From: Oscillospiraceae bacterium
GTDB taxonomy: Bacteria; Bacillota; Clostridia; Oscillospirales; Oscillospiraceae
Assembly (NCBI GenBank): GCA_017861365.1
Contig: JAGFXR010000003.1
Span: 1-64,000 of the forward strand
Length of the DNA stretch: 64,000 nucleotides
Direction: 5' to 3'
Below, piece after piece: positions 10,673 to 61,540 of the stretch; position 1 is the first letter of the stretch, and every line of letters starts with the position of its first letter. Under the pieces are notes generated by a model. The model was given only the letters and a program-made list of their open reading frames with translations. It had not been told where the DNA came from and ran no database searches. The translations under genes were made by a program, and so were the position numbers.

Positions 10673-10772
10673 GAAACAATCGCTCCTCCCTTCAGCACCG
10701 CCCGGGGCGGAAGTTTCGCATTGGATCAGGCAGAGCTGCCTGGGGTTTTGCAATCCCGGGCGTGACTTGTCC

Positions 10773-10801
10773 TTGCGTTACATTTCGCGCCGTGGTAAAA
10801 T
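10773..10801 (+). promoter_or_regulatory. Promoter of the DUF2156-GNAT pair
   Basis: TTGCGT (10773-10778), a 17-base spacer and TAAAAT (10796-10801). A 16-base palindrome (CAGGCAGAGCTGCCTG, 10727-10742) lies 30 bases upstream, role unknown. Confidence 0.55.
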
Positions 10802-10839
10802 AGATCCACCAATTACAGTTTGAATAGAGGCAACAGAGA

Positions 10840-17948: not shown

Positions 17949-18758
17949 ATGGATGAGAGAGGTTATCTGATTATTATTGGCGGCGCGGAGGACAAGCATG
18001 GGGAAAGTGAAATTTTACGGCAGGCGCCTCAAATGCTGTCCGAGGGAGAACTGCTCACCGTTTTGACAACGGCGACAGAGCATCCAGAGGAAGCGGGAGC
18101 GAATTATGAGCGGACGTTTCGGCGGCTGGGGGTCAGGCGGATTCAGATTCTGCATATTGAAACCCGGTGTGACGCTGAGGAGGAGAGCAACTGTGAGCTC
18201 ATCCGTGCGTCAAAATGTATTTTCATCACCGGCGGCGATCAGCTGCGCATCACCAGTATTTTGGGAGGGACAAGGGCGTACACAGAGCTGAAAAATTGCT
18301 ACGCCAGAGGCGGAATTATCATCGGCACCAGCGCCGGGGCGTCAGTCATGAGCTCCACCATGGTGGTGGAAGGAATGGACAATGAACCCGCCAGAAAATG
18401 CACCCTGAAAATGGCGCCGGGGCTGGGTCTTGTGGGCGGAGTCATCATTGACCAGCACTTTGACCAGCGGGGCAGATTCGGACGGCTGCTCTGCGGAGTG
18501 GCGGAAAATCCCGATGTGTTGGGGATCGGAATTGACGAGGATACCGCAATTAAGCTCTATCCCGACCTGCATTTTGAAATTTTGGGGTCCAACGCTGTGA
18601 CCATCATCGACGGGAGTTCCATTCAAGGTTCCAATGTCTCTGAGTCAAACGCGAATGAAATCCTCGCAATTATGGGTGTGACAGTTCACGCGCTGCCCAA
18701 GGGCTATGGCTTTACTTTATCGGATAGAAAGGTTTTACGATTGAACGATGGAAACTGA
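17949..18758 (+). CDS. cphB: Cyanophycinase (serine peptidase family S51)
   Basis: Intracellular exopeptidase that splits cyanophycin (multi-L-arginyl-poly-L-aspartate) into beta-Asp-Arg dipeptides. 269 residues is the usual length. The nucleophile is Ser128 in GTSAGASVM, the conserved S51 nucleophile elbow; IIIGGAEDK at the N-terminus and FITGGDQLR near 92 are family blocks. The ATG at 17949 has AGGAGA ten bases upstream. The last 11 bases overlap cphA, so degradation and synthesis genes are co-transcribed. A short inverted repeat (GATTTG/CAAATC, 17834-17851) lies upstream and might be an operator. Confidence 0.94.
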   Translation: MDERGYLIIIGGAEDKHGESEILRQAPQMLSEGELLTVLTTATEHPEEAGANYERTFRRLGVRRIQILHIETRCDAEEESNCELIRASKCIFITGGDQLRITSILGGTRAYTELKNCYARGGIIIGTSAGASVMSSTMVVEGMDNEPARKCTLKMAPGLGLVGGVIIDQHFDQRGRFGRLLCGVAENPDVLGIGIDEDTAIKLYPDLHFEILGSNAVTIIDGSSIQGSNVSESNANEILAIMGVTVHALPKGYGFTLSDRKVLRLNDGN

Positions 18759-45273: not shown

Positions 45274-48200
45274 TTACGCCATACCGGCAGGCATCATGCC
45301 CATACCGGAGGAGACGTGATCCAGCGCCTTGGAAATGATGGATGACAGCTCTGCCCAGGTAACAGAAGCCTCGGGATTCAGCGCCCCCGCGCCATTGCCC
45401 ACGATAATGTTCATGCCAGCCAGAGCGTTTACCGCTGCCTCCGCCCAGTCGGAGACCGACGCGCTGTCACTAAAGGAGCTCAGAGGGTCGCCCTCGGAGG
45501 TTTCCGCGGTAATGCTCAGCGCTGAAAACGCGCGATACACCATCGTGATAGCCGTTTCACGATCCACAATGCCGTCAGGATCAAAGGTTTCCGTGCTTGT
45601 GCCGGAGACAATCCCGTTGGTTTCCGCCCAGATGACGGCATTCGCGTAGGAAGAGGACGCATCCACATCAGTGTAGGTCAGGCTGCCGTCCACAGCCGGA
45701 GCACCGGCTGCCTGATAGAGCGTCTCAACCAGTTCAGCCCGGGTCACAGAGGAAGACGCGGTGAAGGTTCCGGCGGCAATGATGCCCTCTGCCGCCAGAT
45801 CGTCGGCATAGGTCGCTGACCACTCGTAGCCTTGGAAATCGCTGTCGCTGAAATAGACGGATTGCGCGCCCACATGGAAGGTAACATTGCCGATGGTGGT
45901 GTCTTCCGTCACCTGCTTGCCCGCGATGGTGAGGGTGCCGTACACCTTCACGGTGACGGCGGAATCGGCCTTGACATTGCCGGAGGAGGCCAGCGTCAGA
46001 TCGCCCACGCCGGTATCGCCGGTAACGGTCCAGACAGAGCTGTCGTCAAAGGCCAGGGACGCGTTGCGCAGATAACCTACCACTTTGCCGTCCCACTCGG
46101 AGTTGTTGAAGGTGACATTGGCGGAGGAGGGGCCGGAGCCTGCGTCGGGGCCTGTCATAGTGACAGTGGACGCAATGTAAATGTCGCCGTTTAATTCTGT
46201 GGTTTCATCAGAAGCACCGGTGAGATCCCACTTGGTGGAGCTGTTCTGATTATTGAAGGTGACAAGGCCAGTGCCCGCGTTGTCCGCGGCAAGGAGGTAG
46301 TTCTTTGCTCCTTCAGAAGCGTACTTGGCATAGTTTTCATTGTAGAAGTAGTTGCTGTTGGAGGTCACGGTGGCGGTTCCGGTGCACAGGATGACCGCCA
46401 TCGCCTCGCCGGTCTGGGGCGCGGTGTTTTTATCCTGGTACCAGTAGGACTGTTCCTTGGAGATATCCTGCCCAAACTGATAGGAGGTCTTGTTGATAAA
46501 GAGGTTCAGCATCTGGGCGTTGACCAGGCTGGTGTCATCGCCCCAGCTCCAGTCGGAGAAGGCGGAGGCATCGTCCCAGCTGTCTTCGTCGGTGGACAGG
46601 TCATAGAAGCTATAGTTGTCGGGATTAAACGCGCAGACCACTTTGCTGTTGTCTACCGTGATGCCGGCAAGCGTGCCGGAGCCGCCGGAGCGGGTCTTGA
46701 TACCCGCAACACCGGTGAGCTCCGTGTTGAAGGCGAAGATGTAGCCAGCGGAAGCGGAGCACAGCGCGGCATCGGCATTGGAGTGCAGAGCGGAGTTAAA
46801 CACATAGACCAGACTCTCGTCGGCGCCAATGCAGTAGACTCCGGCGCAGCCGCGGCCGTATGTGGTGGCGGACAGGCGGTTTGCCACAATGGTTCCGCCG
46901 CCGGTATCAGTGGTCAGGGCGGTTCCGGTTTCGTCCGCGGTCACAATGATCGCGATGTCGTCGGTGCTGCCCTTGTCGGCGGTATTGCCGTTGCTGGCGT
47001 AGGCGGAAAGGTCGCTTGTGTATTCGGGCTGGGCCTCCGAATTCCAGTTGGCGGAAACGGTGGAGGAAACCGCCGTGCCCAGATCGGTGCCGGGACGGGT
47101 ATCCAGCACGTTCTCCACCAGATAATCATAATCCGTGTTGACCGTTCCGTCGGAGGTCAGGATGCCGTTGTCCGCGTTGGAATTGAGGGTAATCTGCCCG
47201 CCCAGGGCGACATACAGTCCGTGTCCGCCGGAGGTGGCTCCGAAGTAACGGCCTCCAGACAGGTGTCCGACGCCGCCGGCCACCGCAAAGATCACGTTCT
47301 CCGCGCCTTCAATGGTGGGGTTGTTCAGCACCACCGAGGAGGTGGAGGAATCGGTGTAGTCGCGGATCTGACCCAGGTATTTGCCTTTTGCGTCCGTGTC
47401 TCCGCCGTCTACCAGAACCGCGGAGCCTAGGCCATAGAAATTACAGGCCTCGGAGGGGCCGTAGGGAATGGTATTATTGTGGGAGATCAGGTTGTTGACC
47501 GTTACCTGCGCGCCCTTCTGCACCATCAGCGTGGCCACGTCGCCCTGAACCACATTGTAGGTGCCGTCGTCATTCACATCCTCGTAGGCGGCCTCATAGG
47601 TATCGTTGCTCTTAATATCGGAAGCGGTGGAGCCGACCGACTTGTAGAGATAAGCGCCATAGATTTTATAATTGCCGGGGCGGGGGCCGTTCTGATAATC
47701 GTGCACATAATTATACAGGCGGATGTAATCATAATCGGTGCCATACACCCAGCCCTTTTCCGCGTACACCGCGTTAATGAGCTCGGCCTTGGAACGGTAT
47801 TCCACGTTCTGGGTGATATAGACCATCTGATAGATGGTTCCGTCGATGGTATAATAAGTACCGGTCATGGCGCCCATAGTGGAGGTGTATTTATTGGTGC
47901 CTTCACCGTCGATATCCGCGACGTAGTCATACACGTCATCCGGCAGGGACGCATCGGACGACACAGCCCCAGTGGTAATGGAGGGCGCCACATAGCTGGC
48001 GGCGGGGTCCGAGTCAGCGGTACGGGTGTCGTCCGGATTTGCGGTAAAGGTGACACTGACCGCCGCGCCGGTGGTTACCGTAAAGCTTCCCTCATAGGAG
48101 GTTTGTCCGGCGGCTTCCGCAACTGCGGTGCCGTTGACCGTCAGGGTATCAATCTTATAACCGATGTCCGCCGTAACTGCGTAGGAGGAGCTTAGTTTCT

Positions 48201-48759
48201 CGCTTACCAGAGCCGCGGGCAGATTGTAGGTTCCGTTGGGATAAACACTGCCGTTGTCACCTGCCGAAACCGTCATTTGGGTCATGGAGTTTTCATCGGT
48301 GGTATACTTCATGCCCTCGGCGTAGGTCTTTGCGGCGGCGGAGAGTCCCACATAAAAGGTGCCTCCGCAGCTTGCGGTGGCGACATCCTCCATCGCAGTC
48401 AGGGTGGAGGGAAAGCTCCAGCCGGGGGTGCGGTTCAAATCGTAGAACGAGGTTGTGGAAATCTTCTTAACGCCCTCCGGGATCACCACCCAGCCATTGG
48501 CGTTGGTGATGACCGCCGTGGACCCTCCGCCGATGGTGGTAACGGGCAGGCCGTCTACCTCAGCGGGGAATAAAATCACGCTCTCATTTTTTACGGTACC
48601 CGAGGACGCGACAACCGTCGCCTCGGTATCCGTGGCGGTGTAGTACCATTCACCCGCTGTTTTGACCGAGCTGTCCGCCAGTACGGGAACGCAGGACAGG
48701 GACAAAACTGTAGCCAGCACCAAAAGCAGGGAAATGGCGCGCTTTGCGTTATGTTTCAT
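45274..48759 (-). CDS. SLH-anchored beta-helix surface protein A
   Basis: 1161 residues. Cleavable signal peptide (residues 1 to about 29, ending VPVLADS). Residues 35-160 resemble the BspA/leucine-rich type seen in gut surface proteins (VILFPAEVDGLPVTTIGGGS, WVVIPEGVKKIS). The centre (about 330-950) is a beta-helix with GIKTRSGGSG and SSVWTVTGDTG blocks. The last 175 residues contain three SLH motifs, which bind pyruvylated cell-wall polymer. It ends MGMMPAGMA. ATG behind GAGGAGG. It is divergent from its relative at 49161 and lies upstream of the AraC regulator on the same strand. It may be an adhesin or carbohydrate-contact protein; no catalytic motif was seen. Confidence 0.88.
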   Translation of the reverse strand: MKHNAKRAISLLLVLATVLSLSCVPVLADSSVKTAGEWYYTATDTEATVVASSGTVKNESVILFPAEVDGLPVTTIGGGSTAVITNANGWVVIPEGVKKISTTSFYDLNRTPGWSFPSTLTAMEDVATASCGGTFYVGLSAAAKTYAEGMKYTTDENSMTQMTVSAGDNGSVYPNGTYNLPAALVSEKLSSSYAVTADIGYKIDTLTVNGTAVAEAAGQTSYEGSFTVTTGAAVSVTFTANPDDTRTADSDPAASYVAPSITTGAVSSDASLPDDVYDYVADIDGEGTNKYTSTMGAMTGTYYTIDGTIYQMVYITQNVEYRSKAELINAVYAEKGWVYGTDYDYIRLYNYVHDYQNGPRPGNYKIYGAYLYKSVGSTASDIKSNDTYEAAYEDVNDDGTYNVVQGDVATLMVQKGAQVTVNNLISHNNTIPYGPSEACNFYGLGSAVLVDGGDTDAKGKYLGQIRDYTDSSTSSVVLNNPTIEGAENVIFAVAGGVGHLSGGRYFGATSGGHGLYVALGGQITLNSNADNGILTSDGTVNTDYDYLVENVLDTRPGTDLGTAVSSTVSANWNSEAQPEYTSDLSAYASNGNTADKGSTDDIAIIVTADETGTALTTDTGGGTIVANRLSATTYGRGCAGVYCIGADESLVYVFNSALHSNADAALCSASAGYIFAFNTELTGVAGIKTRSGGSGTLAGITVDNSKVVCAFNPDNYSFYDLSTDEDSWDDASAFSDWSWGDDTSLVNAQMLNLFINKTSYQFGQDISKEQSYWYQDKNTAPQTGEAMAVILCTGTATVTSNSNYFYNENYAKYASEGAKNYLLAADNAGTGLVTFNNQNSSTKWDLTGASDETTELNGDIYIASTVTMTGPDAGSGPSSANVTFNNSEWDGKVVGYLRNASLAFDDSSVWTVTGDTGVGDLTLASSGNVKADSAVTVKVYGTLTIAGKQVTEDTTIGNVTFHVGAQSVYFSDSDFQGYEWSATYADDLAAEGIIAAGTFTASSSVTRAELVETLYQAAGAPAVDGSLTYTDVDASSSYANAVIWAETNGIVSGTSTETFDPDGIVDRETAITMVYRAFSALSITAETSEGDPLSSFSDSASVSDWAEAAVNALAGMNIIVGNGAGALNPEASVTWAELSSIISKALDHVSSGMGMMPAGMA

Positions 48760-49160
48760 GTATGCTCCTCCTCATTTTATGTTCCATATATAATTGTGCA
48801 CAAAACAACCCTAAATACAATAGAGCAATTGCACGTTAATGCTAGCTCCTGCCTGTGCAGAGAGCACAACACGCACCATGGCATACAAAATTTGGAGATG
48901 CAGAAAATTTCAGTCTATCTCAATGATGTCTGAAATTTACCTGAAAAAAACTTGAAATGAATTCCTTTGCGCGAGATTGATGTTGGGCGCGTCAGCCTGC
49001 CCGCACAACCGGCGGCATGATACTTTGTGCAGCGGTCATATAGCACCACGACCGAAAGTGGAATATAATTTACATGTTACATGCGGATTTTCGGTTCCTG
49101 TGAAAACCGCGGAAACAAAAGGAGTCATTGTTCCAGATATTTTAACGAAGGAGAATATGA
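48760..49160. other. Divergent promoter region between the two surface-protein genes
   Basis: 400 bases without a gene. It contains a perfect 9-base inverted repeat AAATTTCAG/CTGAAATTT (48905-48913 and 48930-48938), a plausible operator for shared control. TATAAT at 49064-49069 may be the -10 for the plus-strand gene, but no good -35 accompanies it. Confidence 0.5.
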
Positions 49161-52100
49161 ATGAAACAGGCAAAGCGCATTCTGTCCCTGCTGTTGGTCA
49201 TGGCTATGACCGCCTCCCTGGGCATTACGGCCGCTATGGCGGCGCCTCCGGGGGACGCCTCCGCAACCACAACCACCGCAACGGTGACCAATCACCGGCA
49301 GGGAGATTGGGTATACAGCATCACCAGCGACGGCACAAACAAGTATGCCACTGTCACTTACTACTATGGTAAGGGCGACACCATCATCATTCCCAGCGTG
49401 CTTGGCGGTGTCAGCGTCACTCACATCGCTTCCCTCGCCTTCAGCCGCTCCAGCGCGACCACTGTCTATGTCCCTGACACGGTGACTGATGTGGCCGACT
49501 GGGCGTTCTATGATCTGAATGAATGCAAGGTGTTTTCGTTTGCCAACGCTCAGGTCTCAATCGACACCAACGCGTTCCAGAGCAGCGGCGCGGAAAACGT
49601 TTATGTTCCCGCCGGTTCCTCCGTCACGCAGGCAAACGGCTCCGCCGTGAAGACCAGCGACACGTTTGTGGAAAACGCCATTGACGATATTACCAAAGCA
49701 TGGATCGCGGGCGGACGCTATCTGGCCGTCTCCGGCTATACCCTGACCACCTCCGACATTGCGGCCATCTGCAACATCTCCGATACCGCAGTGGAGCCTG
49801 AAGAGCTGAGCGTTGAGATCGCGGATGCCTTTCAGAATATCGTTTCCGAGAGTGATCTTGTAAACACCTTCAAGATACTCAATACCCAGGAAAAGCTGAC
49901 TGAATTTCAGGACGAACTGAAGGCGGACAGCTCCTATTCCGCGATTTACGCTGCCCTTCCCTACACTCAGGTGGGTTATTATTTAAATGGCAACCTGGTC
50001 ACTTTGGCTGACGACTGCGTCGCTTACGACGTAGCCACCGGAGATCAGATCGAGATTCAGGACGCCGACTCTGACCAGTACTATCAGTACGTGGCTTACC
50101 AGACCAATGACGCCGGAGAAATCAACGCGCTGTATTATACCGGCGTCGGCGTGACCTATACCTACGATACGCCCACCATCACCGGCACCGATACCAATGT
50201 GGACGGCCTGTCCGGGCGCACGGTGCTGGATCCCACTTATCTGGCCTTTGCCAGCGGTGTGGTTAAGGCCGACGGCGAGGACGTTGCCATGGACTCGCTG
50301 AAGGTCTCCGACACCTCTGCCACCACCATTGTGGTCAACGGCGCGAATCAGGCGGCATCCGATCTGATTTCCGCCTCCGCCAATGAGGAGCGTTCCGTTC
50401 TGTGGGCCACCAACGACGGTTCCATCACTGTGGGAACAGTAGACGTCAACTCCACCTCCACCGCCGACTGGGCCAAAATGTCCTATGAGCACGGCCTGTC
50501 CTCCTACAACGTGGAGATTGCCATGGAGTGGGGCATGAACGCCGTGTTCTACGCCACCAACGGCGGTACGCTGGTGGTGGGCGACGCGGACGGCGACCGC
50601 TCCACCATCACCGCCTCAGGCGACGGCGCCAACGGAATCCTTGCCGGCGGCACCGGAACAAAGACTCTCTCCGCCGACGGCACCACCACCAATTCCACCT
50701 CCAACATCACCGTTTACAATGCCGACTTCACCCTGACCGGCTGGAACAACCATGTGGCGGACGTGGTGTACGGCGGACACGCCGAGCTCTATGACATCAC
50801 CGCCACCACCGGCATCAAGGGCTCCTACGCCGTAGGCCAGGGATCTTCTCTGGCAAACGACTTCGGCAACGGCACCATTTATGCTAAAAACTTCAGCTCC
50901 GTGGTATACGGCAACCGTTCCGCGGGCATCTACGCCATCGGCTCCGGCGTGATTGAGGCGGACAGCTCCTCCGTCACATCCTGGGGAGACGCGGCGGTGG
51001 TTTCCGCCTCCGGCGGGACCGTTAAGCTCACCGATTCTCAGGCCAGGGGTCAGATTGTCCTCCGCAGCCGCGGCGGCAACAGCGGCAACAATGCCATGCA
51101 GATGAAGAATACCACCCTGACTCTGGCCCGCGACTATTCCGCCGAGGGTTCCGGCTATGTTTACGGCGACGAGGCTCTGGCTGCCGTCAATGCCTGGATG
51201 AAGTATGTCTCCTCCGACGGAACCCTCATGCACTATGTGATGAGCGGCATCGGCCGCACCATCGGCGAGGCCGCCACCATCACCGATGCCGACGCTGATG
51301 TGGACGGACTGATCACCGCGCTCAACCAAATCGATGGTGTCTCCGTCACCGCTGACACACTCATCCGCAACAGCGTGCTGGACAACACCTATTACAACTA
51401 CTCCGCGGGCGGCTATAAGGGCGTTAACAACGGCACCGGAACCGATTATTCCGAGGTGCCCTTCCTGCAGGCGGGTTCCAGCTTCGGCGGAATTTACTCC
51501 GCCATCATGGAGCTGGAGAGCGCTGGCGAGACGATGACACTGGACAACACCACCGTGGCGTATGACAGCTCCGTGGGCGCCGACTATCATTATCTGGTCG
51601 CCAACGAGGCGGGCTCCACCGGCACCGCCATTAATCTGGAGAACTCCACTGTGGAGGGAATCATCTGGAACGAGGGTGACGTCACCCGTATGTCCATGGG
51701 TATGCCCTCCGCGTTCTCCTCCGAGATGACGGTCAATCTGGTGAACTCCACCTGGAGCGGCGTATTCGCCGACGGTTCCAACGGCCTGTGGAACGGCTCT
51801 GTATCCTACGCCAACAGCGCAGGCGAGACCACAACCCTCAACGGCAACTATTACGGTGCGGCAGGCAACTACGCGACCACTCTGAACATTGACGCCACCT
51901 CCACCTGGAACGTGACCGGTGACAGCTATATCGGCACCCTGAACATTGCCGACGGCGCAACTGTCACCGCGACCGCTCCCGTCACCGTGTTCTACAAAGA
52001 CGGCACTGTTCCCGCCTCTGCCAACAATGTAACCTTCGTGAAGCTTTCCTCCTTCTCCGACATGACCGGCTATGACTGGGCCAACGAGGAAATCAGCTAT

Positions 52101-52559
52101 CTGGTCAATGACGGCATCCTTTACGGCACCGACGAAACCACCTACACCCCCAGTTCCAACGCTTCCCTGCAGGAGTTCGTTCTGATGCTGTACCGCACCG
52201 TAAACTCCGACACGGGCGCAAGCGATTACCAGACCGCTCTGGCCTGGGCCACCGAGTATGCCACCGCCGCCGGCGTTGATCTGAGCGGAGTGGATACCAC
52301 TGCCGCCATTACCCGTGAAACCGCAATGACCCTCATCGCCTATGTTCTGGGTCTCAGCGACGGCACATCGGACGATCTGGCGGCCTTTACCGATGCTTCC
52401 TCCGTATCCTCCGCCGAGGTTGCCTATATTGGCGCTCTGGCTAAGGCCGGTGTGATTGAGGGCGACGACGCAGGTAAGCTCAATCCCTCCGATCCATTAA
52501 ACCGCGCCGAAATGGCCGTTCTCCTCTACCGCGCACTGACGGTGAGCTCCAACACCTGA
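49161..52559 (+). CDS. SLH-anchored beta-helix surface protein B
   Basis: 1132 residues with the same layout as protein A. Signal peptide (1 to about 27, ending TAAMAAP). The N-terminal BspA-like region has IIIPSVLGGVSVTHIASLAF. The centre is a beta-helix (about 340-950) with IVLRSRGGNSG and STWNVTGDS blocks. The C-terminal 170 residues carry three SLH motifs (AKAGVIEGDDAGKLNPSDPL in the last). Threonine-, serine-, asparagine- and glycine-rich composition and near absence of cysteine fit an exported protein. ATG behind AAGGAG. Its own terminator follows. Confidence 0.88.
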   Translation: MKQAKRILSLLLVMAMTASLGITAAMAAPPGDASATTTTATVTNHRQGDWVYSITSDGTNKYATVTYYYGKGDTIIIPSVLGGVSVTHIASLAFSRSSATTVYVPDTVTDVADWAFYDLNECKVFSFANAQVSIDTNAFQSSGAENVYVPAGSSVTQANGSAVKTSDTFVENAIDDITKAWIAGGRYLAVSGYTLTTSDIAAICNISDTAVEPEELSVEIADAFQNIVSESDLVNTFKILNTQEKLTEFQDELKADSSYSAIYAALPYTQVGYYLNGNLVTLADDCVAYDVATGDQIEIQDADSDQYYQYVAYQTNDAGEINALYYTGVGVTYTYDTPTITGTDTNVDGLSGRTVLDPTYLAFASGVVKADGEDVAMDSLKVSDTSATTIVVNGANQAASDLISASANEERSVLWATNDGSITVGTVDVNSTSTADWAKMSYEHGLSSYNVEIAMEWGMNAVFYATNGGTLVVGDADGDRSTITASGDGANGILAGGTGTKTLSADGTTTNSTSNITVYNADFTLTGWNNHVADVVYGGHAELYDITATTGIKGSYAVGQGSSLANDFGNGTIYAKNFSSVVYGNRSAGIYAIGSGVIEADSSSVTSWGDAAVVSASGGTVKLTDSQARGQIVLRSRGGNSGNNAMQMKNTTLTLARDYSAEGSGYVYGDEALAAVNAWMKYVSSDGTLMHYVMSGIGRTIGEAATITDADADVDGLITALNQIDGVSVTADTLIRNSVLDNTYYNYSAGGYKGVNNGTGTDYSEVPFLQAGSSFGGIYSAIMELESAGETMTLDNTTVAYDSSVGADYHYLVANEAGSTGTAINLENSTVEGIIWNEGDVTRMSMGMPSAFSSEMTVNLVNSTWSGVFADGSNGLWNGSVSYANSAGETTTLNGNYYGAAGNYATTLNIDATSTWNVTGDSYIGTLNIADGATVTATAPVTVFYKDGTVPASANNVTFVKLSSFSDMTGYDWANEEISYLVNDGILYGTDETTYTPSSNASLQEFVLMLYRTVNSDTGASDYQTALAWATEYATAAGVDLSGVDTTAAITRETAMTLIAYVLGLSDGTSDDLAAFTDASSVSSAEVAYIGALAKAGVIEGDDAGKLNPSDPLNRAEMAVLLYRALTVSSNT

Positions 52560-52912: not shown

Positions 52913-54805
52913 ATGATTAATAAAATTCTGAATGTCATCACGGGAGAGCCATTAACAAATGAACAGAGCGCGGGAGAAAAATATAATATTCCCTTTGGAC
53001 TTGCCATTATGGCAAGCGACGCGGTTTCATCAGTGGCCTATGCTGCCCAGGAAATTCTGTTTGTTTTAATTGTATTAGGTGTGGCTGCATATCAGTGGCT
53101 GACCATTACCTCATTCATGATTATCGGTCTTTTGATTATTCTGACCATTGCGTACATTCAAATTATCCGCGCCTATCCCCAGGGTGGCGGGGCGTACAAG
53201 GTGGCCAGAGAGAATCTTGGGGTGTTCCCCGGACTGACTGCCGGCGCGGGACTCATTATCGGATATATCCTCACTGTGGCGGTCAGTGCTTGCGCCGGCG
53301 CGGACGCCATTCTGTCGGCATTTCCCTTTCTGACAGGAGCCAAGGTTGAAATTGTGGTGGGCATTGTGATTGTGCTCACAATTTTAAATCTCCGGGGCAT
53401 CAGTGAGTCTTCTAAAATCTTTGCCATTCCCACCTATATTTTTATTTTCAGCATGCTGGTGATGATTGGGTTCGGTCTGTTTAAGTATTTTGTGCTGCAT
53501 ATTCAGCCGGAGCCGGAATTTGAGATTCCGTCCCAGACCATGGAAAACGTCACCTTCTTTATGATTCTAAGGGCGTTTTCCTCCGGCTGCTCCGCCTTGA
53601 CCGGACTGGAATCGGTCAGCAACTCCGTGCCGAATTTTAAGGAAGACAGCCAGAAAAACGCGAAAACCGTGATGGTTCTGCTGGCCATCCTGATTTTTGT
53701 GATTTTCGGCGGCACCTCCATTCTCACGATCTTTTATCAGGCCGTGCCCAAAACGGAAGGCCCCACTGTCATTTCCCAAATTGCCGCGGCTATTTTTGGC
53801 AAGGGCTTCATGTTTTATCTCATTCAGTTCAGCACCGCGGTGATTTTGCTGATGGCCTGCAACACATCCTACACCGGCTTTCCCATGCTGATGTCTATTA
53901 TGGGGAAGGACGGCTATGCTCCCCGGCAGTTTACCATCCGCGGCAAACGGCTGAGCTTTTCCTTTGGCATCATCGCCCTGTCCTGCGTGGCATGTTTGCT
54001 TGTTCTCCTCTTTCAGGCGAATACCCACAGCCTGATTCCCCTCTATGCCATCGGCGTCTTTACGTCTTTTACGCTGGGGCAGTTCGGTATGGTGAGCCAC
54101 TGGATGAAAAGCCGGGACAAGGGCTGGCGGAAAAGTGTGCTGATCAACGGCATAGGCGCCGTTGTGACGCTGCTGGCCACCGCCATTATTCTGGTGCAGA
54201 AATTTACTGAGGGCGCATTTATCGTGGTCATACTCATCCCCATCATTGTGTTTGTCGCGCTGAAAATCAAATGGCATTACAAAAAGGTTGCGGTGGGACT
54301 CAGTATCAGCGAGATTGATCTAAGCAAGGTGAATCTTCGGAAAAAGTACGAGCATATTGTCATCGTCCCCATTGCCAGCCTGAATAAAGCGACACTGGGC
54401 GCGCTGGAATATGCGCAGAGCATCGGAGGACTGGTTTTCGCACTAAATGTTTCTCCCGATTTGGAGTCCATGGAGAAGCTGAAAAAACGCTGGGCGGAGC
54501 TGGACACTGACATCATGCTGATTGCGAAATATTCCCCCTACCGGGCGGTTGTAACGCCTCTTCTCAACTATATTTCGCTGATCGCGGCCTCCACGGAGGA
54601 GGGCGAGCGGGTAACAGTGATCGTGCCTCAGTTCATGACCGATGAGCGATGGGGCAATATCCTGCATAACCACACCGGCTTTTTCATCCGGGAGACGCTC
54701 CTGAAGAACGACAAGGTGATTGTGGCAACCTATCCTTACCACCTTACCGATGAAGCCAAAGAAAGCTGGAGCTCAGAAAAGCCGGACGCGCCGGGGAAAA
54801 GCTGA
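52913..54805 (+). CDS. kimA: KimA-type APC-family transporter (probable potassium importer)
   Basis: 630 residues, about 12 membrane segments (20-440) and a cytoplasmic C-terminal domain (about 465-630). Strong resemblance to KimA (YdaO) of Bacillus subtilis, a high-affinity K+/H+ symporter: ASDAVSSVAYAAQEIL (34-49), AYPQGGGAYKVARENLG, and LTVAVSACAGADAI match that family. Amino-acid permeases of the same superfamily remain possible but lack this set of blocks. KimA is inhibited by c-di-AMP in Bacillus; gdpP in this window degrades that signal. ATG behind GGAGGGTGAC; monocistronic with its own terminator. Confidence 0.85.
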   Translation: MINKILNVITGEPLTNEQSAGEKYNIPFGLAIMASDAVSSVAYAAQEILFVLIVLGVAAYQWLTITSFMIIGLLIILTIAYIQIIRAYPQGGGAYKVARENLGVFPGLTAGAGLIIGYILTVAVSACAGADAILSAFPFLTGAKVEIVVGIVIVLTILNLRGISESSKIFAIPTYIFIFSMLVMIGFGLFKYFVLHIQPEPEFEIPSQTMENVTFFMILRAFSSGCSALTGLESVSNSVPNFKEDSQKNAKTVMVLLAILIFVIFGGTSILTIFYQAVPKTEGPTVISQIAAAIFGKGFMFYLIQFSTAVILLMACNTSYTGFPMLMSIMGKDGYAPRQFTIRGKRLSFSFGIIALSCVACLLVLLFQANTHSLIPLYAIGVFTSFTLGQFGMVSHWMKSRDKGWRKSVLINGIGAVVTLLATAIILVQKFTEGAFIVVILIPIIVFVALKIKWHYKKVAVGLSISEIDLSKVNLRKKYEHIVIVPIASLNKATLGALEYAQSIGGLVFALNVSPDLESMEKLKKRWAELDTDIMLIAKYSPYRAVVTPLLNYISLIAASTEEGERVTVIVPQFMTDERWGNILHNHTGFFIRETLLKNDKVIVATYPYHLTDEAKESWSSEKPDAPGKS

Positions 54806-54835
54806 TATAACGCACAGAGCCCGGCCGGGGAAACA

Positions 54836-54878
54836 AGAAGGGGAGTCCCGCGCGTAACGCGCCGGACTCCCCTTCTTT
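54836..54878 (+). terminator. Terminator of kimA
   Basis: A 13-base outer stem (54836-54848 with 54864-54876) plus an inner GCGCG/CGCGC helix, ending in TTCTTT. Largely symmetrical, so it may also end the regulator gene reading from the right. Confidence 0.85.
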
Positions 54879-54984
54879 CCTGTACCGCTTATGTTTGAAT
54901 ATTGGAGGGATTGATCAGCTGAGAATAAAGTTGTTCCAAATCCTCGCGGATTGCCGAAATAGAAATCATGAGCTTGACCAACAC

Positions 54985-55983
54985 TTATTGAATTTCTGCT
55001 ATGATTTTGCCGGTATCCGTAATATCATAGCCTCCAATGCCATTGACCTCGCTTAAAAATGCCTGAGAGTTTAAAACATCCATCACGGCGGAAACATATC
55101 CCTCGGGGAGGGTACCTTTGGGGATGATCAAATCCAGGCGCTCCTTGCGGATGGGGATAAAATCCACATTATTGACCATCTGCGCGCTTTTTTCGTTGCC
55201 GACGCCCACATCGGCATCCCCTCTTGCAATACAGCTGGCCACGGATATATGCGTGTTTTCCAGACGGTTGAAATATCCGTCAATGCCGCTTTTGGGAATC
55301 CCCATCTGCTGGAGTGAGGCATCAATCAGGACTCTGACGCCGCAGCCTGCTTCGCGGTTTACAAACCGGATATGATCCCGGGTCAGATCCTGCCAGCTTT
55401 GAATGTTCAGAGGGTTGCCCTTTGCCACGTAAAATCCCTGAATGCGGTGCGCCAGGTTCACCATTAGGCAGGGAATACCCGGCAGCAGATAGGGAATAAA
55501 CGGAACATTGTATTCCCCCGTGGTGCTGTCCCAAAGGTGGGCGGAGGAAATGGACACATTGCCGCGGTACAGCTCCACAAGGGCGTTATAGCTGCCCATA
55601 TAGGAGCGCAGGGCCTTGAGCTGATAGGGAGCAGCACTCAGATACTGAACCAGAACATCCAAAAGCGCGTCCTGTCCACAGAGAATAAATTCCTTTGCCG
55701 CAACCTCATATCTGGAAGGAGGGCTTTTGAGCATGCCCTGAATCCTGGCGGGGGTATAATTGATCTGCGGAGATGCAACCGGCTGGCCTACGGCGGCTTT
55801 CACCGATACGGTCTTTGATTGATTGATATAAGCGTCAATATCCTTTGGATCAATCCGCACCTTCCGCCCCACGCGGTAGGAAACCAACTCGTTTTTGTGG
55901 ATTAGGTCATAGACGGTATTTTTTGAGATGCCCAGCAACTCAGCGGCCTCAATGGCGGAATAATACGGTTTGTCTGTAGTCAT
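54985..55983 (-). CDS. One-component regulator: HTH_17 domain plus PBP-like sensor
   Basis: 332 residues. An excisionase/MerR-type winged helix-turn-helix at the N-terminus (SAIEAAELLGISKNTVYDLI, about 9-28, then YRVGRKVRIDPKDIDAYI) is joined to a periplasmic-binding-protein-like domain (about 95-325) with FVNREAGCGVRVLID, the family block for the PBP_like domain found in molybdate- and molybdopterin-linked proteins. It is divergent from nifB-nifV-nifV. A molybdate/tungstate (or similar oxyanion) sensor is the most economical reading, but the ligand is inferred only from domain family and neighbours. Confidence 0.82.
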   Translation of the reverse strand: MTTDKPYYSAIEAAELLGISKNTVYDLIHKNELVSYRVGRKVRIDPKDIDAYINQSKTVSVKAAVGQPVASPQINYTPARIQGMLKSPPSRYEVAAKEFILCGQDALLDVLVQYLSAAPYQLKALRSYMGSYNALVELYRGNVSISSAHLWDSTTGEYNVPFIPYLLPGIPCLMVNLAHRIQGFYVAKGNPLNIQSWQDLTRDHIRFVNREAGCGVRVLIDASLQQMGIPKSGIDGYFNRLENTHISVASCIARGDADVGVGNEKSAQMVNNVDFIPIRKERLDLIIPKGTLPEGYVSAVMDVLNSQAFLSEVNGIGGYDITDTGKIIAEIQ

Positions 55984-56112
55984 TCGTACACCGGCTCTCT
56001 CATTATATCAAAGAAATAGCTTACGAAGAAAAGCTTAAGACGGCAGTGAGCGGACCTATCTGTGCTCATTCTACACCAAACAACGCCAACGTGTCAAATG
56101 AATTGGTACGAA

Positions 56113-56126
56113 ACGGTATATATCGT
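56113..56126. promoter_or_regulatory. Near-palindromic operator candidate in the divergent nif region
   Basis: ACGGTATATATCGT matches its own reverse complement at 12 of 14 bases and is flanked by two ACGAA half-repeats (56108-56112 and 56128-56132). The TATATA core recalls ModE-type sites. It lies 130 bases upstream of the regulator start. Confidence 0.35.
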
Positions 56127-56218
56127 GACGAATTTAAAAATCATATGGATGAATTGAACAATAGCGGATTCTTACAAACATATTTTTTATCATAAAATAC
56201 GAATTGGGTTATTCCATA

Positions 56219-56246
56219 TTGAAAATCAAAAATATTCTGCTATAAT
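56219..56246 (+). promoter_or_regulatory. Promoter of the nifB-nifV operon
   Basis: TTGAAA (56219-56224), a 16-base spacer, TATAAT (56241-56246) with an extended TGC. Transcription should start near 56253, giving a leader of about 290 bases before the ATG at 56540. Confidence 0.65.
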
Positions 56247-56262
56247 GCAGTAAAACGCAAAG

Positions 56263-56315
56263 GTGCATCACCCTAATTTATGCGAAACAGAACCAAAACT
56301 GTTACGCGGGTGCAC
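56263..56315 (+). promoter_or_regulatory. Structured leader RNA candidate upstream of nifB
   Basis: Starting about 10 bases into the predicted transcript, four nested helices can form: GTGCA/TGCAC (56263-56267, 56311-56315), CCC/GGG (56271-56273, 56308-56310), GCG/CGC (56282-56284, 56305-56307) and ACAG/CTGT (56287-56290, 56299-56302) around an A/C-rich 8-base loop. A T-rich run follows (from 56321). The pattern fits a small ligand-binding or attenuating RNA, but no known riboswitch class was recognised. Confidence 0.4.
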
Positions 56316-56539
56316 ATGAGCGTTTTATTTTTTTATTTAAGCAGGAAATCAGATGATTCACGCTTCATGGGCTGCGCTTATAATACCTGGCACACCAAAC
56401 GCTATCCCGCGTGGCTGCTGTCTATATCGACGACGGCAACGGGCTGGAGGTCAGGGTGGCGTTTGCCAATGACTGGGAGCGGGCGTTCCGCTCTAAAAAA
56501 TGGAATATCCGCACTGCGGAACCTGAGGGAAAGGAAGCG

Positions 56540-57409
56540 ATGGCCATGGACTGCGGTACCCATCAAAAGAAAACAGAGGAGCACCCCTGCTATACCTGCG
56601 GCGGCGCGAAAAATGCACGGCTGCATTTGCCGGTTGCGCCCAAATGCAACATTCAGTGTAATTACTGCGTTCGGAAATTTGACTGCCCCAACGAAAGCCG
56701 GCCTGGGGTTACAACCGAGGTGTTGAGCCCGGCGGAGGCGTTGCTCCGATACCGGAATGTGTACGGTCGGCTGGATAACTTGAAGGTTGTGGGAATTGCC
56801 GGTCCGGGTGACGCTTTGGCTAATCCGGAGGAAACCTTTGAGACCCTGCGGCTGATTCGGGCGGAAAACCCGGACATCACCTTCTGTGTCTCCACCAACG
56901 GGCTTATGCTGCCCCGCTACGCCCAGGAGCTGATTGACTTGGATGTCAGCCATGTGACGGTCACGCTCAATGCAGTGGATCCTGCCATTGGAGCACATAT
57001 TTACCAGTTTGTAAATTATGATGGAATCAGATATACTGGTGAGGAGGCAGCGTCCCTCCTTCTGGAAAACCAGCTGGAGGGACTTAAGAGACTGACGGAG
57101 CGAGGGGTGGTCTGCAAGGTCAACATTGTGGCGCTCAAGGGAATCAATGACGATCACGTGGAAGAGGTCGTCAAAACGGTGAGAGCACTGGGCGTTTATA
57201 TAACCAACATTATGCGGCTTATCCCCGTGGGCGGTTCGGCCTTTGCCCAAATGGAGCCGCTGGCGGAGCAGGACATCATCCACCTGCGCAGCCGCTGTGA
57301 GCAGCATTTGCGGCAGATGTACCACTGTAAGCACTGCCGCGCCGACGCCGCCGGAGCGCTGGGATCGGATATTCCGCTTGAGGGTAAAAAAATGTGTTGT
57401 TCCGGATAG
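56540..57409 (+). CDS. nifB: NifB-type radical SAM protein (nitrogenase cofactor biosynthesis)
   Basis: Radical SAM enzyme that fuses two [4Fe-4S] units and inserts carbide and sulfur to form NifB-co, the 8Fe core of nitrogenase cofactors. 289 residues from the ATG at 56540 (MAMDCGTHQ), with AAGGA upstream. NifB hallmarks: EHPCY, LHLPVAPKCNIQCNYC with C36-x3-C40-x2-C43, RKFDCPNESRPGVT, GIAGPGDALANPEET and the C-terminal HCKHCRADAAGALGSD. It lacks the C-terminal NifX domain of proteobacterial NifB, as is usual in Clostridia. An in-frame GTG at 56411 would add 43 residues but has no ribosome site. It is tightly linked to the two nifV genes. Confidence 0.92.
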   Translation: MAMDCGTHQKKTEEHPCYTCGGAKNARLHLPVAPKCNIQCNYCVRKFDCPNESRPGVTTEVLSPAEALLRYRNVYGRLDNLKVVGIAGPGDALANPEETFETLRLIRAENPDITFCVSTNGLMLPRYAQELIDLDVSHVTVTLNAVDPAIGAHIYQFVNYDGIRYTGEEAASLLLENQLEGLKRLTERGVVCKVNIVALKGINDDHVEEVVKTVRALGVYITNIMRLIPVGGSAFAQMEPLAEQDIIHLRSRCEQHLRQMYHCKHCRADAAGALGSDIPLEGKKMCCSG

Positions 57410-57418
57410 GAGGGTACT

Positions 57419-58453
57419 ATGAAACATGAGGTGCTGCTGATTGATCATACGGCAAACCGGCTGCTGACCGTCCCCGACAGCGCGGCTGCACTGGAGCGGC
57501 TTGGGCACTACCCGGTAACCGCAATGGACTGCGATTTGGCAACGTGGAGCTTGACGGGGCCGTCGTCGCTGCCCATCCGGGTGGAATGCGCTGCGGATGA
57601 GCTGGAAGGACTGCTGAGTGCTGGCTGTCCCGCCGCCATTGTGCGGCTGGAGGATGATCTGGAGGCGGCGCTCTCCCGCGTAAAACACCTCCGTCGGAAA
57701 GATTCTGCTATTTGGCTCAAGGCATCCGGCGCGTCCTCCTTTGGCGTGGAGCAGCTTCGCCGCTGCGCCGCGCTGATCCGCGCTTATGACCTGGCAGGAT
57801 TTATTTACTGTGACGACGGTTATACGGAGCCCTTCGCGCTGGAGGCGCGCATTGCCCAAGCCATAGCGGCTCTGGGCTGTTCGGTGGAGTTTTCTCCCTC
57901 CAACCGTTTCGGACTGGCGACCGCCAACACGCTGACCGCGGTGCGCTGCGGCGTCCGGCGGGTGCATACCTCGGTGGGCGGCATCTGCTGTGACCGCTCC
58001 GCCGCGATGGAGGAGGTGCTACTGTCCCTGAGCACCTTCTACCAGATTGGCGGGCCTCAATTTAGGCAGCTTTCCGGCGACTGCGCGGGCATCCTCGCCG
58101 CGTTGGGTCTTCGGGTGCCGGGAGATAAGGCTGTCATCGGAACGGATATTTTCGCGTTTGAGTCTGGAATTCATGCCTTCGGTATTCGTCAGAATCCGGC
58201 GCTTTACGAGGTCATCGATCCCGAGACGGTGGGACTGCGGCGGCGGCTGGTGCTCGGAAAGCATTCCGGCCGGGCGGCTGTGCGCAGTAAGCTGGAGGAT
58301 ATGAATTTGCCGCTGCCCGACGATCTCATTGCCATCCTGACCGAGCAGGTGGTTCAACTGGCCACAAGGCAAAAGCGCAGCCTGACGGAGCAGCAATTTC
58401 AGACGCTGGCGGCTGCGCTGCTTTCTGAGAGAGGAGATCATGCGGCCGGATGA
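57419..58453 (+). CDS. nifV: Homocitrate synthase omega subunit (split NifV, C-terminal half type)
   Basis: 344 residues, homologous to the HMGL-like/homocitrate synthase family and placed before nifV-alpha, as in Clostridium pasteurianum. The C-terminal domain has FESGIHAFGIRQNP and VLGKHSGRAAV. The N-terminal 200 residues look like a decayed TIM barrel: the catalytic STLRDGEQ start is absent, and the metal-binding HGH of the family is replaced by S159-P-S161 within EFSPSNRFGLATANTL. It should therefore need the alpha subunit for catalysis, supplying the C-terminal accessory domain. ATG behind AGGAGGGTACT, nine bases after nifB; it overlaps nifV-alpha by four bases. Confidence 0.88.
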   Translation: MKHEVLLIDHTANRLLTVPDSAAALERLGHYPVTAMDCDLATWSLTGPSSLPIRVECAADELEGLLSAGCPAAIVRLEDDLEAALSRVKHLRRKDSAIWLKASGASSFGVEQLRRCAALIRAYDLAGFIYCDDGYTEPFALEARIAQAIAALGCSVEFSPSNRFGLATANTLTAVRCGVRRVHTSVGGICCDRSAAMEEVLLSLSTFYQIGGPQFRQLSGDCAGILAALGLRVPGDKAVIGTDIFAFESGIHAFGIRQNPALYEVIDPETVGLRRRLVLGKHSGRAAVRSKLEDMNLPLPDDLIAILTEQVVQLATRQKRSLTEQQFQTLAAALLSERGDHAAG

Positions 58454-59289
58454 AGACATTCGATTTTGTGGACTCCACCCTCCGGGATGGTGAGCAGACC
58501 GCGGGAGTGGTGTTTTCACCTGAGGAGCAGATGGAGATTGCACGGCTGTTGGATCGCGTTGGAATTCGCTGGATTGAGGCGGGCGTCCCCGCCATGGGAT
58601 CCGCCGAGCGCGAATTTTTATCCGAGCTCCACAGGGCCGGGCTGTCCGCGCAGTTGATTTCATGGAACCGCATGAGACGCGAAGATGTTGATTTTGCGCT
58701 TTCCTGCGGCTTTCGTTATATTCATCTGTCCATTCCGCTGTCGGATATACACATTCAATATAAGTTCCAGAAAGACCGGGCATGGGTTTTAAACCAGATT
58801 GAAGATGTGGTGGGGTACGCGGCCTCCTTCGGCGTCAGCGTATTTTTGGGCGGAGAGGATGCGGCGCGGGCAGACCGGGAGTTTTTTTTGCGGGCGGCGG
58901 AGACGGCGGAAAAGGCCGGAGCTTCCCGTATCCGCTACGCCGACACCATCGGCTGTATGGACCCATTCCGGGTGCGCGGCGAGATGGAATACCTCTCCGC
59001 CCGGTGTCCTCTGCCCATTGAATTTCATGGTCACAACGACTTTGGCCTGGCGGCCGCCAATACCCTTGCGGCCTATAAAGGGGGGGCGGCCTTTGTCAGC
59101 GTTACCTCCACCGGAATCGGGGAGCGAGCCGGAAACGCCTGCCTGGAGGAAATCGTAACGGCAATGGAGTGCCTGTACCACTATGACTGTGAACTTCACC
59201 CGGAGCATTTGCCCGCGCTGCGGCAGGCGGTATCCAAGGCCGCGAACCGGGAAAACAACGGCAAACATTTTTGTACAAAAATGAATTGA
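58450..59289 (+). CDS. nifV: Homocitrate synthase alpha subunit (split NifV, catalytic half)
   Basis: 279 residues, the TIM-barrel catalytic half that condenses acetyl-CoA with 2-oxoglutarate to give homocitrate, the organic ligand of FeMo-co. The substrate/metal motif FVDSTLRDGEQTAG lies at residues 6-19 and the metal pair H193-x-H195 in FHGHNDFGLAAANTL; GIGERAGNA near 220 is the family signature. The C-terminal accessory domain is missing and encoded instead by the preceding gene (ATGA overlap). The same frame stays open for 73 codons after the stop, through low-quality sequence. Confidence 0.92.
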   Translation: MKTFDFVDSTLRDGEQTAGVVFSPEEQMEIARLLDRVGIRWIEAGVPAMGSAEREFLSELHRAGLSAQLISWNRMRREDVDFALSCGFRYIHLSIPLSDIHIQYKFQKDRAWVLNQIEDVVGYAASFGVSVFLGGEDAARADREFFLRAAETAEKAGASRIRYADTIGCMDPFRVRGEMEYLSARCPLPIEFHGHNDFGLAAANTLAAYKGGAAFVSVTSTGIGERAGNACLEEIVTAMECLYHYDCELHPEHLPALRQAVSKAANRENNGKHFCTKMN

Positions 59290-59592
59290 GAAAAACAGCG
59301 GATTGGCGACTACTCCGATCTTACCCCGGAGCTGCCAGAGTTGCTTAGGAAAATGTTGCGGTTTACCCAGGAACAGGCCGTAGGGCTAGAACACTTGGCA
59401 CAGGAGGATGCTTTGGGCGGGCGCGGTGCAGGTGTGCCTCAGCGGGGACTTCAGGGAGGCATCCGAAACGGTGAGGCTGCTGTACGGGCAGACGGGACAC
59501 TTTGCGAATGAACAGTGGAAGTATGGGAAATGGCCAGTCGGATGAAGCGGGTAAGCCAATTGCTGGTCAAAGAATGTTAAACGCGGATCACA
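59290..59592 (+). other. Decayed coding-like sequence
   Basis: About 300 bases with no intact gene. One frame is open to 59509 with a protein-like start (DYSDLTPELPELLRKMLRF). A different frame from about 59430 reads SGDFREASETVRLLYGQTG before a stop near 59547. This looks like a frameshifted remnant of an unrecognised gene. No terminator follows nifV-alpha. Confidence 0.4.
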
Positions 59593-59901
59593 GTGCCTAG
59601 CATGGTTGGGATTGAGTCAGGCATTTGGCTTGAAGCCATTGCGGAAGGTGACAGCCTTGACTGGAAGGGGATATCCGCTGATGAAATTACAAAGCGGGTG
59701 GTCAGCAAAGTTTCGTCCGGCTCCATTGTCCTGTTTCACAATGCCGCCATTCATACGCCGGAGGCGCTGCCGGGCATCATTGAGGCGCTGCTGAAGGATG
59801 GTTATACCTTTGTGCCCATATCGCAGCTCATTTTGACCTGTGACTATATCATCGACCACACGGGCCGTCAGATTGCCGCGACACAGTCCACGGAGACTTG
59901 A
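59593..59901 (+). pseudogene. Polysaccharide deacetylase, C-terminal remnant
   Basis: 102 residues matching only the end of a NodB-type polysaccharide deacetylase: GDSLDWKGISADEITKRV, then GSIVLFHNAAIHTPEALP and GYTFVPISQLI. The N-terminal half with the catalytic TFDDGP motif and metal-binding histidines is missing, and no Shine-Dalgarno precedes the GTG. It is therefore most likely a pseudogene fragment, perhaps left by a deletion that joined it to the sequence after nifV-alpha. Confidence 0.75.
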
Positions 59902-60014
59902 TAGTTAAGATCGGGGAGAATGCGGAATCAGGAAGCATGACTAAACATCGCTGCGTCTTGCTTTCGGGCCAAACAGCCCCAGCGGCTCAAAGATATATAG
60001 AACCCTGTTTCAAC

Positions 60015-60050
60015 AAAAAGGACGCTCTGAATTTTCAGAGCGTCCTTTTT
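60015..60050. terminator. Bidirectional terminator near the aldehyde dehydrogenase
   Basis: A perfect 16-base stem (60015-60030 with 60035-60050), loop ATTT, with TTTTT at the 3' end on either strand. It serves the minus-strand dehydrogenase gene that stops 15 bases away. Confidence 0.9.
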
Positions 60051-60064
60051 GAGTTGCTGGTGTC

Positions 60065-61540
60065 TTAATAGAAACCGGAGGGTGACTCCGACAGATTGAT
60101 CATGATATTTTTCTTCTGGGAGTAATGATCCAGCGCCGCCTTATGGGTTTCACGGCCCACGCCTGATTCCTTATACCCGCCGAAGGGTGCGCCCGCCGGA
60201 ATGGCATTATAGGTGTTGACCCACATTCTGCCTGTTTCGATGCCGCGGCACACGCGGATCGCCCGGTTGATGTCCCGTGTCCAGACCGCGCCGCCGAGAC
60301 CGTAATCGCTGTCGTTGGCCATGGCGATGACTTCCTCCTCGGTGCGGAACTTAATGACACTGGCCACCGGCCCAAAGATTTCCTCTCTGGCCACGCGCAT
60401 GTCATTGGTGACATTGCTCAAAAGGGTGGGCTTCATAAAGCAACCCTTTGCCAAATCACCTTCTGCGTACGCCTCACCGCCGCAGGCGATGGTTGCGCCC
60501 TCGGTTTTGGCGACGTCCATGTAGCCCAGAATTTTTTTGACCTGCGCGGCATTGACCTGCGCGCCCATCTGGGTGTCAGGCAGCCAGGGCAGACCGACCT
60601 TAACTTTCTCAAACGCCTCTACCGCGTCGGAGAGGAAACGGTCATAGATGTCCTCGTGAACAAACACACGGGAACCCGCGCAACAGACCTGCCCCTGATT
60701 AAACAGAATGCCCAGCTGCAGTCCGTCCATAGCCATGTCCCACTTGCAGTCGGGGAAGTAGATGTTGGCGCTTTTGCCGCCCAGCTCCAGTGTGGAGGGA
60801 ATCAGCCGGCCGGCCGCAGCCAGAGCTACATCGCGGCCCACCTCAGTGGATCCGGTGAAGGCCAGCTTGCGGAAGCGCTTGTTTTCCAGCATGTAGTTGC
60901 CCGATTTAGAACCCGCGCCGGTGATGACATTCAGCACGCCGGGGGGCAGGAGATCCTCAATCAGCTTCACAAATTCCAGTGTGCTCAGGGGAGTGGAGCT
61001 GGAGGTTTTCAGCACGATGCAGTTGCCTGCCGCCAGCGCAGGAGCAAGCTTCCACGCCACCATCAGGAACGGGAAGTTCCAGGGGACAATCTGACCCACA
61101 ACGCCGAGGGGCTCACGGAGAATCAGGCTCATGGTGTTGCCGTTGAGCAGGGTGGCGGAGCCCTCATCTGCGCGGATGGAGGCCGCGAAATAACGGAAGT
61201 GATCCGCCGAGTAGGGGATATCAATATTACTGGTCTCGCGGATGGGTTTGCCGTTGTCCATGGTCTCGACCAAAGCCAGGTGTGCTGCGTTCTGGTCAAT
61301 TCTGTCCGCAATTTTCAGCAAAATATCCGCACGGGCGGCGACATCCGTCTCCTTCCACGCGGGAAAAGCAGCCCAAGCGGCATCCAGCGCGGAATCCACG
61401 TCCTCACGGGTGGCTTCGGCGCATACGGCCAGCAGTTCCCCGGTGGCGGGGCAGTGGGTTTCAAAGGTGGCGCCGTCGGATGCGGAAACCCACTTCCCGC
61501 CGATGTAAAGTCCATATGTATGATCAAGTTTCAATTCCAT
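60065..61540 (-). CDS. NAD(P)-dependent aldehyde dehydrogenase
   Basis: Class-I/II-type ALDH, 491 residues, oxidising an aldehyde to the acid. Cofactor fold with FTGSTEVG (about 228-235), general base E252 in LELGGKSANI, and catalytic Cys286 in NQGQVCCAGSR. PWNFPFLMVAWKLAPALAAGN (core PWNFPF) is at 153-158. ATG behind AGGAGG. It is close to the phenylacetaldehyde/betaine-aldehyde group, but substrate choice is not readable by eye. The PucR regulator directly upstream on the same strand may control it. Confidence 0.93.
   Translation of the reverse strand: MELKLDHTYGLYIGGKWVSASDGATFETHCPATGELLAVCAEATREDVDSALDAAWAAFPAWKETDVAARADILLKIADRIDQNAAHLALVETMDNGKPIRETSNIDIPYSADHFRYFAASIRADEGSATLLNGNTMSLILREPLGVVGQIVPWNFPFLMVAWKLAPALAAGNCIVLKTSSSTPLSTLEFVKLIEDLLPPGVLNVITGAGSKSGNYMLENKRFRKLAFTGSTEVGRDVALAAAGRLIPSTLELGGKSANIYFPDCKWDMAMDGLQLGILFNQGQVCCAGSRVFVHEDIYDRFLSDAVEAFEKVKVGLPWLPDTQMGAQVNAAQVKKILGYMDVAKTEGATIACGGEAYAEGDLAKGCFMKPTLLSNVTNDMRVAREEIFGPVASVIKFRTEEEVIAMANDSDYGLGGAVWTRDINRAIRVCRGIETGRMWVNTYNAIPAGAPFGGYKESGVGRETHKAALDHYSQKKNIMINLSESPSGFY

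Follow-up and report, generated by a model that had tools for sequence, protein, structure and literature searches.

An Oscillospiraceae draft genome carries, at positions 54985-59289 of the first 64 kb of one of its contigs (this 64,000-nucleotide stretch is hereafter the window), an island consisting of a helix-turn-helix (HTH)/PBP-type regulator, NifB and the two halves of a NifV-type homocitrate synthase. We find that this island is very probably the 3' remnant of a vanadium-nitrogenase (vnf) cluster. A sequence-only reading of the window had recognized the NifB hallmarks, the split homocitrate synthase and the HTH/PBP-like regulator, all of which are borne out by profile matches and motifs, and had proposed that the structural genes lie elsewhere, that the island serves a nitrogenase-like reductase, or that it is a relic with intact frames. 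The last proposal is well supported by direct observations, namely three scraps of vnf genes lying in vnf order, intact frames and motifs in the surviving genes and a vnf-type NifVα, and the parent can now be named as vnf-type. The ancestral cluster would have comprised the regulator and vnfH-D-G-K-E-N-nifB(X)-nifVω-nifVα. Deletions, presumably in this lineage, would have removed vnfH, vnfG, vnfK, vnfE, the NifX tail and all but small parts of vnfD and vnfN. Three scraps are left upstream of nifB, and the nifB, nifVω and nifVα frames are intact. What remains cannot fix nitrogen by itself. The island would represent a V-nitrogenase cluster caught mid-loss, with the catalytic genes the first to go and cofactor synthesis left behind, and genomes of this kind are open to being miscalled as diazotrophs or treated as mysteries of NifB without nitrogenase. 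Among the papers listed by searches of the open-access literature for such remnants and for nitrogenase-like sulfonate systems of the gut, none describes this arrangement.

The scar upstream of nifB

Directly upstream of nifB, three pieces on the same strand within 56349-56493 match vnfD, vnfD and vnfN, in vnf order, and are followed by nifB, nifVω and nifVα. The sequence-only reading overlooked this scar; its statement that nifH, D, K, E and N are absent from the window holds for intact genes and fails for these scraps. Our comparison used vnf clusters from three other genomes: L143 in G151 (Ruminococcaceae UBA1320), L203 in G127 and L237 in G1036. The first piece (56349-56413, plus strand) corresponds to codons about 66-88 of the L143 vnfD with a 1-base indel; it is identical at 53 of 66 positions to L143 vnfD 3952-4016 (E 1.8e-9) and also matches L203 (E 3.4e-8) and L237 (E 1.3e-5), and so all three clusters compared. 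The second (56418-56448, plus strand; codons about 379-389) shares 26 of 31 positions with L143 vnfD 4890-4920 (E 0.005). The third (56467-56493, plus strand) encodes NDWERAFRS from the 3' end of vnfN and shares 23 of 27 positions with L143 vnfN 9866-9892 (E 0.036, with the same value for L237). None of 95 control pieces from the window reached E<=1e-3, the best being 0.002. At the protein level, MGCAYNTWHTKRYPA from the first piece scores 87 against VnfD, compared with 53 for the best of 40 simple shuffles, while the third piece equals that best shuffle at 53 and the second falls under it at 48. The first piece is therefore significant on its own. The weight of the second and third comes mainly from their order, strand and position, because their E values are no better than that of the best control. 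On the L143 coordinates the pieces are separated by roughly 0.87 kb and 4.9 kb. The island also lacks the 5' part of the cluster, comprising vnfH and the beginning of vnfD, as well as the NifX tail.

We considered whether a chimeric join in the draft could have produced this arrangement. The assembly (G000 in our labels; 1.69 Mb) is fragmentary, with 26 contigs and 73.94% completeness, but the contig, 164,956 bases long, extends past the island on both sides, contamination is 0.18%, and misassembly would hardly yield three collinear scraps of one cluster. An artefact of this kind is accordingly very improbable.

Other parents were tried and set aside. A molybdenum nitrogenase (Mo-nif) cluster with a NifN-B fusion would fit the gene order, but a hidden Markov model of NifN C-termini, built from 41 Mo-type NifN-B fusions, found nothing upstream of nifB, and the scraps match vnfD and vnfN. 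An Fe-only (anf) parent was rejected on the comparison cluster itself, whose D protein scores 911 bits against VNFD (cut-off 823) and 719 against ANFD (cut-off 873.8).

Upstream of the scar, a promoter-like TTGAAA-16-TATAAT at 56219-56246 (plus strand) was matched to consensus by eye only. Downstream, in 59290-60064 between nifVα and an aldehyde dehydrogenase gene, a Pfam scan recognized no gene (a 102-residue frame opens at 59593) and a search for vnf or anf pieces gave nothing scoring above shuffles. Rfam returned a single sub-threshold match (E 0.4) over 54800-60200.

Intact vnf clusters in related genomes

The arrangement vnfH-D-G-K-E-N-nifB-X-nifVω-nifVα is seen in the three comparison genomes, which belong to the same order or class as the Oscillospiraceae bacterium. 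In L143, H, D, G and K are followed by two EN-like genes, nifB-X, Vω, Vα and an AnfO gene; an assembly gap separates H from D. The D protein is VnfD by the score given above, while its G is best for vnfG (136.7 bits, cut-off 141.7) and its K for vnfK (837, cut-off 874), both just below the cut-offs. L203 and L237 are similar, with VnfD scores of 922.6 and 949.2 bits against the cut-off of 823. The window shares with these clusters the 3' order nifB-nifVω-nifVα, the NifVα clade (for the two of the three present in the tree), the vnfD and vnfN sequences now reduced to scraps and, near L237, relatives of the regulator. It differs from them in that no vnfH, G, K or E was found, vnfD and vnfN are reduced to scraps, and NifB lacks a NifX tail.

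The vnfEN genes of these clusters lie at 7066-9926 (L143), 9752-12618 (L203) and 7915-10766 (L237). In a midpoint-rooted tree of D proteins with long branches, the vnfE proteins of L143 and L203 side with group-IV-like D proteins, not with NifE.

Mo-nif clusters provide the second point of comparison. A scan of other genomes with the window NifB kept 80 of 584 loci, and we examined the surroundings of 53 of them (L097-L149). A NifN-B fusion is present in 41 of the 53, typically in the order nifH-I1-I2-D-K-E-(N-B-X)-Vω-Vα, an arrangement in Clostridia that we take to be like that of C. pasteurianum. The split homocitrate synthase is ordered as in the window, and the window NifB is 60-68% identical to the best of their NifBs. 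Unlike theirs, however, the window NifB is not fused to NifN, and the window NifVα falls in another clade.

The surviving genes

The two halves of the homocitrate synthase occupy adjacent frames on the plus strand. NifVω, the C-terminal half (57419-58453), matches TIGR02660 positions 125-364, and NifVα, the catalytic half (58450-59289), matches positions 4-266; neither half by itself reaches the cut-off set for the full-length protein. NifVα retains the words DGEQ, HGHND and GERAGN, which were picked by eye. Together the two proteins are predicted, at most, to make homocitrate. The window NifVα is 52-54% identical to the vnf-linked NifVα proteins of G151, G127 and G1036. Among the matches listed, only these exceed 50% identity (the first two from 394 genomes of the order, the third from 391 of the class), and the other NifVα matches listed reach at most 46% (394 genomes of the order, 400 of the family and 391 of the class, with E up to 1e-40, 1e-50 and 1e-60). 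In a NifVα tree that left out L237, which was found later, the window protein forms a clade with L143 and L203 (SH-aLRT 100) on a long end branch of 0.92.

NifB (56540-57409, plus strand) consists of the radical-SAM domain only, without a NifN or NifX part. It scores 356 bits against TIGR01290 (cut-off 343.65), with only the radical-SAM part aligned, and has all six motifs (HPC, Cx3Cx2C, ExRP, AGPG, TxTxN and Cx2CRxDAxG) of a list taken from PMC5715403. We predict that it makes, at most, NifB-co, the [Fe8S9C] core. Its frame is open from a GTG at 56411, and the 43 residues that precede the ATG at 56540 include scar sequence; the ATG, preceded by AAAGGAAG, is the likelier start. The gap from nifB to nifVω is 9 bases, and nifVω and nifVα overlap by 4.

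Several observations weigh against a vnf parent. The NifB protein is 56-59% identical to the three vnf NifBs as against 60-68% to many Mo-nif NifBs. A NifB tree, which the sequence-only reading had proposed as a check, was built and does not place the window protein among the vnf NifBs; the protein sits on a long end branch (0.52) whose position is not settled. An approximately unbiased (AU) test nevertheless did not reject a clade of the window NifB with the two vnf NifBs in the tree (p 0.448). No vnf-type NifVα appeared among the matches listed for the 399 other family genomes sampled, and thus no close intact relative was seen. To these points must be added the shortness and individual weakness of the second and third scraps, with their E values and shuffle-level protein scores, and the failure of the NifN C-terminal model to find anything upstream of nifB. 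Even so, since NifVα belongs to the vnf-linked clade and relatives of the regulator lie beside nif, anf and vnf genes, the island is most likely a vnf 3' end.

The regulator

The regulator (54985-55983, minus strand) is divergent from the remnant and joins HTH_17 (57.9 bits) to a PBP_like sensor (209.2 bits) in Pfam. Strong PBP_like matches (>180 bits) number eight in the 11 genomes searched. Apart from the one in the window there are seven. Four of them are 0.1 to 2.7 kb away from nifH or anfH, and a fifth is divergent from ABC genes, beyond which lies a nitrogenase-like D/K pair some 5 kb away. The sixth is located at the edge of its contig, where the 6 kb read contain no nif gene, and the contig of the seventh has none at all. 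The L237 vnf cluster is flanked on both sides by relatives, which are 43% and 46% identical to the window protein, while none was found near the L143 or L203 clusters in the stretches read. These neighbourhoods in other genomes support a link between the regulator and nitrogenase clusters, and they indicate that PBP-type regulators of this family are often close to nif, anf, vnf and nitrogenase-like clusters. A search for a shared operator in the intergenic regions of the regulators gave only AT-rich and -10-like words.

At 3271-11948 of contig C228 in G151 (L218), we also observed a nitrogenase-like D/K pair with two more frames, an ATPase-like gene with an adjoining frame, and a divergent PBP-type regulator like that of the window.

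Nitrogenase-type genes elsewhere in the genome

A search of the whole 74% assembly, another check that the sequence-only reading had proposed, gave no NifH over the Pfam cut-off (a single match reached 23.6 bits) and no NifD, VnfD or AnfD. Intact vnfH, vnfD and vnfK are likewise absent from the assembly, where vnfD exists only as scraps; vnfG was not sought genome-wide. The proposal that the structural genes lie elsewhere thus found no support in the assembled part, with 26% of the genome missing. That a complete nitrogenase (nif, vnf or anf) in this unassembled portion uses the island genes is unlikely in our judgement. The incompleteness of the assembly leaves space for one, and three of the 120 genomes in our family sample have component-1 genes above 400 bits. 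On the other hand, the frequency of the nifN-nifB fusion (41 of 53 loci) argues that a nif cluster elsewhere would probably carry its own NifB.

What the search did find were four component-1 matches, all on contigs C26 and C19, which form two MarD-related, group-IV-like D/K pairs. They score no more than 82 bits against ANFD (cut-off 873.8) and are far below the NCBIfam cut-offs for nifD, VNFD, nifE, nifK and vnfK. On C26 (L006, 7001-13042), a NifX-like gene, the MarD-related D and K are followed by an SsuA-like binding protein (144 bits, below its cut-off of 163.5), a permease and an ATPase. On C19 (L007, 8321-16770), a MarD-related D and a K gene broken by one TAA lie beside two ABC systems. 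The C19 locus also has DUF4418 and a MacB/FtsX-type permease, and similar sets are present in G104 and G006.

The best solved relative of both D proteins is MarD (9FMG; 260.7 and 171.8 bits), and the cofactor cysteine, Cys270 in MarD, is conserved in both. In the C26 protein the Arg428-His429 loop of MarD falls in an alignment gap, while in the C19 protein the His is aligned and the Arg is replaced by Asp. The alignment also puts a histidine of the C26 protein, kept in its nearest relative (G092, contig C94), near what we take to be the nitrogenase ligand position. That position is also given in PMC12552129, where the Arg428-His429 loop is described as a possible Mar hallmark. In the D tree, which has no MarD row, the C26 and C19 proteins group with a pair of D proteins from Heliophilum and stand apart from NifD, NifE, VnfD and AnfD; these Heliophilum proteins are termed group-IV-like in PMC9147875.

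Two known systems resemble these loci in part. As with MarBHDK and IsrBHDK, the D proteins are MarD-related and the adjoining ABC genes include SsuA-like binding proteins that score below the SsuA family cut-off, but no H or B gene is linked to the C26 and C19 D/K pairs, and the comparison contained no Isr sequence. Isr is described in PMC11423573 as a nitrogenase-like enzyme required for growth on isethionate as sulfur source. Heliophilum fasciatum, with its group IV Nfl proteins, likewise combines divergent D/K pairs with NifB and NifV elsewhere and no classical nifDK, according to PMC9147875; there, however, nifB and a nifH-like gene stand with NflDK1, whereas the nifB of the window lies in the vnf remnant, with no assembled nifH.

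Use or disuse of the remnant genes

These loci bear on whether the remnant is still used. NifB, and perhaps NifV, may feed the group-IV-like D/K proteins of C26 and C19, a proposal that adds to the remnant interpretation without excluding it and that approaches, in our view, an even chance. Possible clients exist because both D proteins are nearest to MarD, keep the cofactor cysteine and group with the group-IV-like Heliophilum proteins, and Mar is reported to hold an [Fe8S9C] cluster without homocitrate (PMC12552129). The assembly yielded no NifB besides the one in the window. In the family sample of 120 genomes, with a threshold of 190 bits for both proteins, all eight genomes with NifB also have component-1 genes, although four of the 12 with component-1 genes have no NifB. 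The deletions, moreover, spared three frames and apparently whole ribosome-site-like sequences ahead of nifB and nifVω. Against such use stand the absence from the assembly of the NifH that they need, which leaves the idea of service to a nitrogenase-like reductase with two D/K pairs and no assembled reductase partner, and the stop in the C19 K gene. In G006, a NifH-NifB(X) pair is located apart from the D/K loci of that genome, and therefore the missing quarter may hold such a pair. NifV is also left unexplained by a Mar-type client, because Mar has no homocitrate in the source just cited.

A stronger form of this proposal, in which the group-IV reductases took over the remnant NifB and split NifV and here carry a homocitrate-bearing, nitrogenase-type cofactor, seems improbable. 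If it were true, the C26 D protein, whose conserved histidine lies near the nitrogenase ligand position and not at the Mar one, would belong to a reductase of sulfonates or C-S bonds whose active site is closer to that of nitrogenase. If NifB does serve group-IV reductases, cofactor supply can pass between nitrogenase families.

Alternatively, the remnant may be dead, its deletions so recent that three genes without use have not yet decayed, a reading we regard as quite tenable while rating it short of even. The scar appears fresh in that GCAYNTWHTKRYP and NDWERAFRS are unchanged relative to L143, although HGPVG just ahead of GCAYNTWHTKRYP is broken, and in the second piece 5 of 13 residues differ. 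All three proteins break conserved columns more than most rows of their alignments: NifB 4 of 95 (95% columns; rank 5 of 50 rows), NifVα 8 of 58 (90% columns; rank 3 of 41) and NifVω 3 of 26 (90% columns; tied first of 49). By contrast, the NifB and NifVα motifs looked for are all intact, and the genes stand 9 bases apart in one case and overlap by 4 in the other. Neutral expectations depend on rates that we chose by hand. At 0.02 changes per nonsynonymous site, 1.8 stops would be expected and the chance of none is 0.16, whereas at 0.065 changes per site 6.0 would be expected and the chance falls to 0.003. The rate cannot be fixed from so short a scar, given two unchanged stretches beside a broken HGPVG and a divergent second piece. 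With the neutral expectation ranging from 1.8 to 6.0 stops, the intact frames are therefore no proof of use.

A further NifB locus of possible decay was seen in G092 (contig C23, L087, 5924-7516), where the match contains two stops, which may mark a decaying nifB or a frame end; that genome has nitrogenase-like genes.

Other features of the window

Two features lie outside the island. A cyanophycin synthetase-like protein at 18748-21414 has Cyanophycin_syn, RimK-type ATP-grasp and Mur ligase domains, cyanophycin synthetase being a nitrogen-storage enzyme. Two large SLH-domain proteins of 1161 and 1132 residues are encoded on opposite strands at 45274-52559.

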